From the NCBI GenBank assembly GCA_030680995.1, contig JAUXUM010000209.1, forward strand, positions 1 to 45,096: 45,096 nt of DNA, read 5' to 3'. The position numbers were made by a program, and so were the translations under genes. The DNA comes from Devosia sp. Its GTDB lineage: Bacteria > Pseudomonadota > Alphaproteobacteria > Rhizobiales > Devosiaceae. Below the pieces are notes generated by a model that saw only the letters and a list, made by a program, of their open reading frames with translations, made no database searches and had not been told where the DNA came from. How positions within the stretch are numbered: the stretch's first letter is position 1; each line of letters opens with the position of its first letter. Positions 33,635-36,941 of this stretch are shown here, in pieces.

Positions 33635-34149
33635 ATGCCGTTTCGCGCGCTCGTTACCGACCTGGATGCCAAGGGCAGGGTTTCGAGCAGGCTTCGGTAT
33701 CTCAGCGACGAGCGACTGTCCGAAGGCGAGGTCCCGGTGGCTGTGGAATGGTCTGGCCTCAACTACAAGGATGCGCTCTGCCTCTCGGGCCAGGGCAAAC
33801 TGGTCAAAGCCTATCCGCATATTTGCGGCATCGATCTCGCGGGCCGGGTTCTCGAGAGTCGCGATGCCCGCCATCACCCGGGGCGGCCGGCGGCGCAAGC
33901 TGGGACGGCAGCGTCATCCCCCTTATTCCGCGCGGCGTGGCGCTCCTGGGAATCGACAGCGTCACGATCCCGTTCGAAGCGCGGCAGGCCGCCTGGGACC
34001 GGCTCACCGACCTGTTCGCGCCGGCGGTTTACGAGCCACTGGTCGCCGAGGCGGGCCGCGACGAACTGCCGGGGCTCGCGGCACGGATCCCGAAGGGCGC
34101 GATCGCGGGGCGCGTGATCGTCAATCCGCGCGATCCGGTAATGAGTTAG
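33635..34149 (+). pseudogene. AcuI/YhdH-type acrylyl-CoA reductase, internally deleted
   Basis: The first about 80 codons (MPFRALVTDLDAKGRVSSRL, then AVEWSGLNYKDALCLSG and GIDLAGRVLES) are the N-terminus of the AcuI/YhdH quinone-oxidoreductase family. After about 33870-33895 the family resumes in a different frame near its C-terminus (PRGVALLGIDSVTIPFEARQAAW to GAIAGRVIVNPRD). About half of a roughly 330-residue enzyme, including the Rossmann cofactor domain, is missing and the frame is shifted. The product would normally reduce acryloyl-CoA with NADPH. The TAG at 34147-34149 overlaps the end of murD2 on the other strand. Confidence 0.88.
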
Positions 34150-35480
34150 CGGGTGGGGGCCTTGTCCTCGCCGGCGAACAATTTCTCGGCCATTGCGACG
34201 AAGGCGGCACCGCGTTCCTCGAAGTTCCTGAAGACCTTGCCGTCGCTTTCCAGCTGGCCATAGCTGGGTGCGCCGGGCGAGAGGATGATTGTGTCGAAGC
34301 GCGCGGTCCGCGTCGCCAGGGCCTTCATCGCCGCTTCGAGGCTCGCCGCTTCCAGCACCTCGATATCGGGCGCCGCGGCATAGGCGGCGGTGGCGAGGCG
34401 GTCGCCGGTCACCGGCAGGCAGACGAGGATCGTCACTCCCGACGGGCCGAGCAGGGTCGCGAGCTCGGAATAATTCTGCTGGCGCTCATGGCCGCCGGCG
34501 ATCAAGGCGATCCGCTTGCCCTTGTAGGCGTTGAGCGCGGCCTTGGTGGCCTCCGGGGTGGTCGAGATCGAGTCGTTGACGAAGGTCGTAGTGCCGAAGG
34601 TGTGCTCCTCCAGCCGATGCGGCAGCGGCACGAACTTGGCGATCCCCCGCACCACGCCTTCGAGATCGGCGCCCGCCTTGAGTGCGATCTGGGTTGCGAG
34701 GATGGCATTGTCGAGATTGTGCTCGCCCTTGAGCCGCGAGCGCGCCACCGCCGAGGTGATGCGGTCCTCGATGAACGGCGCGAGAGGCGGCACCAGGCGT
34801 GTCCGATCGCGCAGCGCCTCGATCACGAGGGGGTTTTCATCCGCCCTGGCGCCGAGCGCTACGAGGAAGGGCAGGTCGCGATCGATGAGATTGAGCTTAT
34901 CCGCATAGTAGCGCTCGACCGTGCGGTGCCAGTCGGTGTGCTCGGGCGTGAGGTTGGTGATCGCCGCGATGTCGGGCGAAAACCCGATGTCGGCGGTCTG
35001 GTAGGAGGAGAGCTCGAACACCACGATCTTGTGCTTGTCGGCGATCTCGAGCGGCGCCAGCCCGACATTGCCGGCCAGCCCCGCATCGAGCCCGGACTCG
35101 GTCAGCATCAGATGGACCAGTGTCGCGGTGGTCGATTTGCCCTTGGTGCCGGTGATGGCGATGACAAAGCGGCCCTCGCGGTAAGCCTCGGCCCAGAGGT
35201 TGAGGTTCGAGGTGACCGTGATCCCGACCTCGCGCGCCACCGCGAAGATCGGGCGATAGCGCGACACGCCGGGGCTCTTGACGATGGTGCCGAAGCGTTT
35301 CTCTGCGACCGCCGCGGGCAGGTCGACCGGCGCGATCGCCTCGGCATCCTCGATCGCGGTCTCGCCGCTGTCGACGGTGACGAAAACCTTGGTCCGGGGT
35401 GCGCGTTCCTTGATGAAGGCACGGGTGGAGCGGGCCTCCCGCCCGGCGCCGTAAAGCAGGATCGGCTCGTCAAAACGCAT
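34146..35480 (-). CDS. murD2: UDP-N-acetylmuramoyl-L-alanine-L-glutamate ligase (MurD2)
   Basis: A 444-residue Mur ligase with the P-loop ITGTKGKST (residues 109-117), the central-domain FELSSYQTADI and NLTPEHTDWH segments, and the C-terminal HRLEEH, NDSISTTPEA and SPGAPSYGQLE motifs. It lies away from any dcw cluster. Its start overlaps the murL stop by 11 bp, exactly the partnership of the Xanthomonas MurD2/MurL pathway. MurD2 adds L-Glu, not D-Glu, to UDP-MurNAc-L-Ala in the cytoplasm using ATP. Sequence alone shows a MurD-type ligase; assignment to MurD2 rests on context and the unusual N-terminal domain. Confidence 0.85.
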   Translation of the reverse strand: MRFDEPILLYGAGREARSTRAFIKERAPRTKVFVTVDSGETAIEDAEAIAPVDLPAAVAEKRFGTIVKSPGVSRYRPIFAVAREVGITVTSNLNLWAEAYREGRFVIAITGTKGKSTTATLVHLMLTESGLDAGLAGNVGLAPLEIADKHKIVVFELSSYQTADIGFSPDIAAITNLTPEHTDWHRTVERYYADKLNLIDRDLPFLVALGARADENPLVIEALRDRTRLVPPLAPFIEDRITSAVARSRLKGEHNLDNAILATQIALKAGADLEGVVRGIAKFVPLPHRLEEHTFGTTTFVNDSISTTPEATKAALNAYKGKRIALIAGGHERQQNYSELATLLGPSGVTILVCLPVTGDRLATAAYAAAPDIEVLEAASLEAAMKALATRTARFDTIILSPGAPSYGQLESDGKVFRNFEERGAAFVAMAEKLFAGEDKAPTR

Positions 35481-36801
35481 GATCTTTGACCCTTTCGGCG
35501 ATCTCGGGCGGGATATGATGATCCTTGCCGTCCGTCATCAGCTCTGCAAGTGCTGCTTCAAGTCTGGCGATGCCATATTGAGCCACCATATCGGCCTTGA
35601 GCCTTGATATGATTGGTTCTTCCGCCCATTCCTGCCGCGACGTCAGCTCGTAGAGGCAGGCGGCGGCCTCGAGGATTTCGCCCACGCATTCCCAGGGTTT
35701 CTGTCCGGCAAGCCCCGTCAGCTCGCGGAACGAGGCCTCGTTCCGCGGCTTGGCGAGCAGGTTCTGGCCGAAAATGCCGAGGAGCCGGTCCTTGGCCATC
35801 TCCGGGGCAAGGATCAGGAAGACGAAATGGCATTTCGGGCATTCGCCGCACCAGAGCGGACCATTGTGCCCGTCATACCTGAAGTTGCGGTTGCAGCTCG
35901 AGAACACTCGGTCGAAACGCGCCTGCCGCGCGAACAGCCGCGCGATCCTTGCCTCGGAGTAAGGCCGCAGCAGCGAAAAATAGCCCAGCGCGCCGCCGGT
36001 CGCGCCGGCCAGGATATCGGCGATCAGCGCCTCGAATTCGAGCGACTTGGAGTATTGGTGGTTGACCTCGCGTCCGTCGTGGAAGGCATTGCCTTCGCTG
36101 GCCGAGCGCTCGTTGGAAAGCACGACGCGGTCGTAGGAATAGAGCAGGGCGCAGAGCGCCGCGATCATCGAATTGATCGCGGTCGAGGGCACATGGCCGT
36201 TGTAGTAGCCCGGCTCGCTGCCGAGGCGGATCATCTCGGGGTCGAGCGTACGCGTCACATAGATCGGCGGCTTGCCGATCTCGCCGACCGAGGACAGGAT
36301 AGGCCCCTTGGGGTTGACGGCGAACGGGGTGAATTCCACCCCCGCCGCTTCCAGCAGCGCGACGCTGACCAGTGAATCCTTGCCACCGCCGATCGGCAGC
36401 AGTGAGCGGTGCCGAAGCAACGGGGAGGGCAAGGGCGGCCGGTCGTCGGTGCGGGACTTGATGCTCAGCTTGCCGAAGCGTTCGAGGTTGTTCCGGGCAT
36501 AGAACTCGCCCAGTCCGTTCTCGTAGACATCGAGGACGAAGGCCTTCTCGGCTTCGCTCAGGGCGATCTCGGGCGCTGCGATAACGAAGGGTGCCAGCAG
36601 CTTGTAGTAGCTCACGCCGAGGACGATGGCGGTGAGGTCGAGGAGCTTGCGGAAAGGGGCCGAATCGAGCGCATCCCGATCCCACTCGGCCGGGAAGGTC
36701 AGCGTTTCGGTGAAGGTCTTGCGGTCGAGCCCATAGCTGACGCTGACCGTGCCGTTCGCAGGGTCGAATTCCGGCCTATGGATGAGGAAATCGGAGTTCA
36801 A
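35470..36801 (-). CDS. murL: UDP-MurNAc-L-Ala-L-Glu epimerase (MurL)
   Basis: A 443-residue protein matching the MurL family as recalled. It has an ATP-pyrophosphatase-like loop SLLPIGGGKDSLVS (about residues 133-146), LSNERSASEGN, and a C-terminal CNRNFRYDG, then WCGECPKCHF cysteine cluster. MurL epimerises the terminal L-Glu of UDP-MurNAc-L-Ala-L-Glu to D-Glu in an ATP-consuming reaction, giving the normal peptidoglycan precursor without glutamate racemase. The start is TTG at 36801 with AAAGG eight bases upstream; no ATG gives a full N-terminus. It is first in the operon with murD2. The family was long annotated as hypothetical. Confidence 0.87.
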   Translation of the reverse strand: MNSDFLIHRPEFDPANGTVSVSYGLDRKTFTETLTFPAEWDRDALDSAPFRKLLDLTAIVLGVSYYKLLAPFVIAAPEIALSEAEKAFVLDVYENGLGEFYARNNLERFGKLSIKSRTDDRPPLPSPLLRHRSLLPIGGGKDSLVSVALLEAAGVEFTPFAVNPKGPILSSVGEIGKPPIYVTRTLDPEMIRLGSEPGYYNGHVPSTAINSMIAALCALLYSYDRVVLSNERSASEGNAFHDGREVNHQYSKSLEFEALIADILAGATGGALGYFSLLRPYSEARIARLFARQARFDRVFSSCNRNFRYDGHNGPLWCGECPKCHFVFLILAPEMAKDRLLGIFGQNLLAKPRNEASFRELTGLAGQKPWECVGEILEAAACLYELTSRQEWAEEPIISRLKADMVAQYGIARLEAALAELMTDGKDHHIPPEIAERVKDHAF

Positions 36802-36821
36802 GAACAGCCTTTCTACGGCGT

Positions 36822-36899
36822 CATTCCCGCGAAGGCGGGAATCCAGTGCGGCAGGCGCCAGCTTCCATCAAGTAGTGGATTCCCGCCTTCGCGGGAATG
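36822..36899. repeat. Paired REP-type palindromes in inverted orientation
   Basis: Two 24-bp arms (36822-36845 and 36876-36899) are exact reverse complements around a 30-base spacer. Each arm holds its own hairpin, TTCCCGC-GAAG-GCGGGAA. This CGCGAAGGCGGGAA-type unit is a well-known dispersed intergenic repeat in many proteobacteria. It lies between the metallophosphoesterase stop (36942) and the murL TTG start (36801). It may end transcription from upstream, so murL may have its own promoter between the repeat and its start. Confidence 0.85.
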
Positions 36900-36941
36900 G
36901 CGCCATAAATTGAGGCATCGAATCGGGTGCGCAAGAGGGGC

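Follow-up and report, generated by a model that had tools for sequence, protein, structure and literature searches.

A linked murL-murD2 gene pair in Devosiaceae as the probable replacement of the canonical D-glutamate route to peptidoglycan

A stretch of 45,096 nucleotides from Devosia sp. (contig JAUXUM010000209.1, here called the window) carries two overlapping genes on its minus strand, which with high confidence we read as the MurD2-MurL route of peptidoglycan synthesis, most likely the only working source of D-glutamate (D-Glu) for the stem peptide in this organism. In this route MurD2 would attach L-glutamate (L-Glu) to the cell-wall precursor and MurL would then flip the attached residue to the D form. 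Both reactions are taken from published enzymes, i.e. from the Xanthomonas oryzae pair MurD2 (XOO_1320) and MurL (XOO_1319), whose characterization in 2017 and 2019 we cite through a review (PMC8788868). The route itself is already known, and Devosia, Pelagibacterium and Parvularcula are named as carriers in that review, which was the only item found in the open-access literature on Devosia, murD and peptidoglycan. The pair described here is therefore a known kind of system. What is added is the loss of murD from the dcw cluster, the replacement throughout the family, the fusions of the two genes and a predicted QatC-like fold of MurL.

The gene pair and its residue signatures

The features of the pair are the following:

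35470..36801, minus strand: murL, match to NF041275, TTG start, 443 residues
34146..35480, minus strand: murD2, match to TIGR01087, E180/R333/I305 signature
35470..35480, minus strand: 11-bp overlap ATGCGTTTTGA holding the start codon of murD2 and the stop codon of murL, read from the window sequence
36373..36390, minus strand: GGGKDS pyrophosphate-binding (PP-loop) motif, MurL residues 138-143, from conservation in 49 sequences and alignment with the TtuA PP-loop
35830..35895, minus strand: MurL cysteine cluster C303 ... C318xxC321xxC324, likely zinc site, invariant in 49 sequences, motif of the QueC/QatC kind
34941..34943, minus strand: E180 of MurD2 (X. oryzae MurD2 E197, E. coli MurD D182), from residue comparison
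34482..34484, minus strand: R333 of MurD2 (X. oryzae MurD2 R358, E. coli MurD K348), from residue comparison
34566..34568, minus strand: I305 of MurD2 (E. coli MurD K319), from residue comparison

A first-pass annotation of the window had proposed a MurD-type ligase outside any dcw cluster, an 11-bp overlap with a second gene, and a GGGKDS loop with a cysteine cluster in the second protein. All of these are borne out: both reading frames and their overlap lie where they were placed, the loop and the four cysteines are at the residues listed, and the dcw cluster of the genome contains no murD. The ligase scores 250.3 bits with the NCBIfam murD model TIGR01087 (cut-off 211.95) and contains the middle and the C-terminal domain of Mur ligases (PF08245, PF02875).

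The residues that determine the specificity for L-Glu in X. oryzae MurD2 are, according to the same review, E197 and R358, which correspond to D182 and K348 of E. coli MurD; when both are changed the enzyme switches to D-Glu, and the K319T mutation lets L-Glu into E. coli MurD (PMC8788868). At these three positions the window ligase has E180, R333 and I305. All 39 further family (Devosiaceae) genomes examined have the same E/R/I signature, seen in 10 best-scoring MurD loci and 29 MurL-neighbour loci from different genomes, and D/K/K stands at the same positions in each of the 30 MurDs with the best scores in the order sample. Of the MurL-linked ligases in the named loci, 75 in all, 62 also have the E/R combination. 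The position of E. coli K319 is occupied by Ile or Leu in 69 of the 75 (1 Phe, 5 gaps), which is a third natural marker. Moreover, in a quick tree a single branch (SH-like approximate likelihood ratio test, SH-aLRT, 99) separates 83 MurL-linked ligases from 16 canonical MurDs, the latter being E. coli MurD and 15 of the 30 order MurDs; three short ligases were left out.

The likeness to the Xanthomonas system extends to the gene pair as such, the specificity residues and the full-length match of MurL. The MurD2 of X. sacchari has E206 and R367, each nine positions above X. oryzae 197 and 358, and has the NDSI motif in common; all three residues of the window ligase recur in it, and the gene order murL-murD is the same. 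Ligases of this kind are annotated as D-Glu-adding MurDs, as in this X. sacchari gene, and for the pair in the 57 sampled family genomes the label is probably mistaken. The annotated MurL of X. sacchari is 39% identical to the window MurL and agrees with it at all 41 conserved positions of a 49-sequence MurL alignment of which it was not part. In this alignment G138, G139, D142 and S143 of the PP-loop are invariant, as are the four cysteines. The closest named MurLs are those of Devosia (67-72% identity), so the window was assigned to Devosiaceae. The canonical MurI-MurD system resembles the pair in that MurD2 is likewise a Mur ligase passing the murD model; it differs in the window genome in that there is no MurI above the cut-off, E/R/I takes the place of D/K/K and the ligase gene lies outside the dcw cluster.

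D-glutamate sources in the genome and alternative readings

The first-pass annotation had suggested a search of the genome for murI, a D-amino-acid transaminase and a second murD, and none was found. No protein scores above the MurI cut-off, the window ligase is the sole MurD above its cut-off, and a PF01063 search gave no candidate transaminase. Its single hit, a fragment at a contig end, is closest to branched-chain transaminase (276 bits vs 40 for D_amino_aminoT). The second-best MurD match (contig C50, 119.9 bits) is murC, and the matches on contig C183 are murE and murF; these genes were identified by translation in the window genome and by tblastn in the others. Of the PF01177 hits, that on contig C40 is an aspartate/glutamate racemase, not murI, and that on contig C200 has no good match (18.8 bits on asp_race).

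The dcw cluster is split between two contigs, whose ends overlap within mraY by 52 identical bases; the joined order is mraY, ftsW, murG, without murD. The arrangement murE-murF-mraY-ftsW-murG-murC without murD was seen in 6 of 6 further family genomes, chosen by hand, four of which are single-contig; in both of the other order members inspected, and in E. coli, murD lies between mraY and ftsW. The first-pass annotation had asked whether a canonical murD is still needed next to the pair. In this family the alternative route looks like a replacement and not a spare, murD being the one gene missing between mraY and ftsW in a part of the cluster that is otherwise complete. The proposed route of D-Glu formation after ligation, which the E180 and R333 residues and the lack of MurI, transaminase candidate and second murD support, would then be essential. 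The pair would have replaced the canonical machinery in a Devosiaceae ancestor, with murI gone and murD lost between mraY and ftsW.

MurL was found in 57 of the 61 family genomes sampled, and MurI above the cut-off in 0 of the 61. Matches to the MurI profile below the cut-off (E <= 0.001, 21-113 bits) occur in 41 of the 61. In the order sample MurI is above the cut-off in 55 of 81 genomes, and a further 10 score 126-143 bits. Outside the family, 62 genomes with MurL were searched, of which 12 belong to the 14 others of the class sample and 50 to the 70 named loci L039-L108, and only one has MurI above the cut-off; this sole match (L185, G458:C40:641-1333) lies in a Patescibacteria bin.

Several observations weigh against the proposed route. 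The window MurL gives a nearly full-length match to NCBIfam NF041275 (389.5 bits, E 1.6e-116, residues 5-441 of 443) that lies under the curated equivalog cut-off of 700. In the profile check advised by the first-pass annotation the ligase passes its model, and MurL is matched along its length but below its cut-off. We note that NF041275 is a Xanthomonadales model with a cut-off set for Xanthomonadales. Two Rhodanobacteraceae proteins pass it with 758 and 764 bits (2/2), and all eight relatives from outside Xanthomonadales fall below it, i.e. seven MurLs at 323-426 bits (two Devosia, Gayadomonas, Solirubrobacter, Microbacterium and two Patescibacteria) and a divergent relative at 112 bits. Furthermore, the E/R pair is not universal, since 5 of the 75 MurL-linked ligases have D/R, one has C/V and one D/S; in 6 of the 75 one or both positions are missing because the sequence is cut. 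At two of the 80 named MurL loci (L069, L076) no MurD2 frame was seen over about 6 kb, and here the contig does not stop just past the murL frame. One family genome (G309) has, besides the MurL pair, a 113-bit MurI match below the cut-off (L149, G309:C236:1055-1654), which is either a real second route or a stray contig.

The draft state of the genome (257 contigs, 96% complete) is another such point, as a gene could sit in a gap. In that case the absence of murI and of murD from the dcw cluster would be an assembly artefact, which we regard as extremely unlikely. The 52-base overlap of the contigs inside mraY leaves no room for murD, and the six other family genomes, four of them in a single contig, have the same gene order.

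The remaining points concern the racemase encoded on contig C40, which passes TIGR00035 with 187.2 bits (cut-off 93.1). Overexpression of RacD let a Vibrio fischeri murI mutant grow without added D-Glu, i.e. such an enzyme can provide D-Glu when overexpressed, as reported in PMC12502697. It is conceivable on this basis that the window ligase uses D-Glu made by the racemase and that MurL has another role, e.g. in repair or recycling. This is very unlikely: the ligase has E/R/I, not D/K/K, and is the neighbour of MurL, and the MurI-profile matches occur in 41 of the 61 family genomes vs 57 with MurL, so that some family members show no such racemase.

A mixed situation can also be considered, in which both routes run: the ligase would take either enantiomer, MurL would correct the L product, and D-Glu from any source, including the encoded racemase, would be used. 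The D-Glu activity of X. oryzae MurD2 is described as extremely low compared with E. coli MurD, but not nil, which leaves some room for this; the same enzyme works with L-Glu (PMC8788868). The lack of MurI above the cut-off in all 61 family genomes speaks against the mixed situation, which we hold to be improbable, and likewise against the assembly artefact.

Linkage, distribution and fusions of murL and murD2

MurL and MurD are neighbours in every family genome that has MurL (57 of 57); their matched parts are on the same contig, with 11-79 bases between them. For one of these genomes (G321) the MurD match is under the cut-off; a 58th family genome (G315) has a MurD and no MurL match. With starts placed by homology to that in the window, all 38 Devosiaceae loci that could be placed have an overlap of exactly 11 bp (39 were tested; L029 gave no placement). 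Outside the family, where 64 of 70 loci were placeable, the overlap varies widely. The exact 11-bp overlap is a feature of Devosiaceae that differs from the Xanthomonas pair. Because of the overlap in 38 of 39 loci and the adjacency in 57 of 57 genomes, the pairing is beyond chance. The two genes are probably translated together via the overlap; AGAAAGG stands six bases 5' of the murL TTG start.

The two proteins also vary together. The tree distances of MurL and MurD2 correlate at 0.95 (72 loci) and at 0.81 in 32 hand-picked, spread loci. The MurDs above the cut-off score 238-292 bits in the family (57 of 61 genomes) and 289-377 bits in 76 non-family genomes of the order sample, two further genomes having none above it.

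MurL is present in 3 of 81 order genomes, all Devosiaceae, and in 15 of 289 class genomes, two of these matches being weak or divergent; both counts include the genome of the window. Among named genomes, at least 579 stretches were confirmed as encoding relatives. The 80 named loci kept from these take in Xanthomonadales, other Gammaproteobacteria, several actinobacterial classes and Patescibacteria. A MurD2-like frame was found in 75 of the 80; in three of the other five the contig stops 0-70 bases beyond the murL frame. A divergent MurL relative in another alphaproteobacterium (L027, G086, 727-2229) keeps the PP-loop and the cysteines and differs at 13 of the 41 conserved positions, N201-H203 among them.

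In 4 of the 80 loci, from Falkowbacteria and Moranbacteria (Patescibacteria), a single open frame encodes MurL and MurD2 and retains the main motifs of each protein (two of the four are near-identical), and no MurI match was found in the four genomes. The fusions are located as follows:

L068:1785-4445, MurL-MurD2 fusion
L104:168-2966, MurL-MurD2 fusion
L107:5944-8427, MurL-MurD2 fusion
L108:5776-8475, MurL-MurD2 fusion

These fusions make the physical coupling of ligation and epimerization testable.

Predicted fold of MurL and its relation to QueC and QatC

MurL is described as having no known conserved domains in the statements of two reviews, of 2018 and 2021 (PMC5808125, PMC8788868). The structure predicted by AlphaFold has high scores (predicted local distance difference test, pLDDT, 96.3; predicted template modelling score, pTM, 0.94), and the top VIA matches of the model are QatC, QueC and Cap9. 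Foldseek gave E 1.6e-6 for QatC and 3.3e-4 for QueC, with template modelling scores (TM-scores) by query length of 0.42 and 0.31. According to the model, MurL thus falls within the proteins with a QueC-like fold. A profile search with MurL returned weak matches to PP-loop enzymes, the best being TtuA (E 0.00095), and an unrelated dehydrogenase at E 1 (nine sequences in total); the GGGKDS motif aligns with the PP-loop of TtuA.

The QueC family is characterized by the PP-loop SGGxDS and the zinc motif C(x)8CxxCxxC (PMC13329287), and QueC and QatC share the kind of cysteine motif seen in MurL, as far as these two sources describe it (PMC13329287, PMC13279940). MurL has GGGKDS and C(x)14CxxCxxC, (nearly) invariant in 49 sequences, with Gly where the QueC loop begins with Ser and with a wider gap after the first cysteine.

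The comparisons at the level of sequence and overall superposition are less favourable to this relation. The Foldseek TM-scores of MurL and QatC are modest (0.42-0.46, root mean square deviation > 11), and the two-domain match of MurL and QatC rests mainly on VIA-align, itself a re-examination of the Foldseek candidates. None of the 49 MurLs matched Pfam QueC (PF06508) at E <= 1, an hhalign comparison of MurL with one E. coli QueC sequence was not significant (probability 3.9), and a single-sequence search for solved relatives of MurL found none. With the PADLOC models no MurL of the 49 matched QatC and one matched QueC (E 0.028). QatC, which belongs to the qatABCD anti-phage defence system (PDB 9y01, 9y02), is 12% identical to MurL and has a different partner and biology.

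On balance we think it fairly likely that MurL is an unrecognized branch of the QueC/QatC group of enzymes with a PP-loop and a zinc motif. The carboxylate activation of this group, presumably by adenylation at the PP-loop, would in MurL serve no coupling to a nucleobase or amine; it would acidify the alpha carbon of the peptide-bound Glu, allow its inversion and end with hydrolysis of the adenylate. This would explain the conversion of ATP to AMP, known from the published enzyme, and the one-way epimerization. The predicted fold thereby offers a concrete, testable mechanism for MurL and ties cell-wall chemistry to phage-defence enzymes. In the open-access literature we found no paper pairing MurL with QueC, and among the matches listed none named both MurL and PP-loop. 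The reaction of QatC is described as unsolved (PMC13279940), and MurL would, if the relation is true, be a guide to it.

Two MurL-like genes without an annotated MurD nearby (L203:8959-10353 and L204:8875-10275) are located on mobilizable Pseudonocardia plasmids, beside a large WD40-repeat gene. Their products have lost N104, N201 and R279 and have R in place of K141, residue changes that suggest another substrate. These proteins may represent a further, non-cell-wall use of MurL.

Two features flank the gene pair in the window. An inverted repeat with 32-nt arms (94% complementary) occupies positions 36814-36907 and ends 12 bases upstream of the murL start; each arm contains the palindrome TTCCCGCnnnnGCGGGAA. 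It resembles a dispersed palindromic repeat. On the other side, at positions 33635-34149, short reading frames converge on murD2, one of them with an alcohol-dehydrogenase N-terminal domain. They look like the start and the end of a quinone-oxidoreductase-type gene whose middle is missing, through a deletion or an assembly fault.

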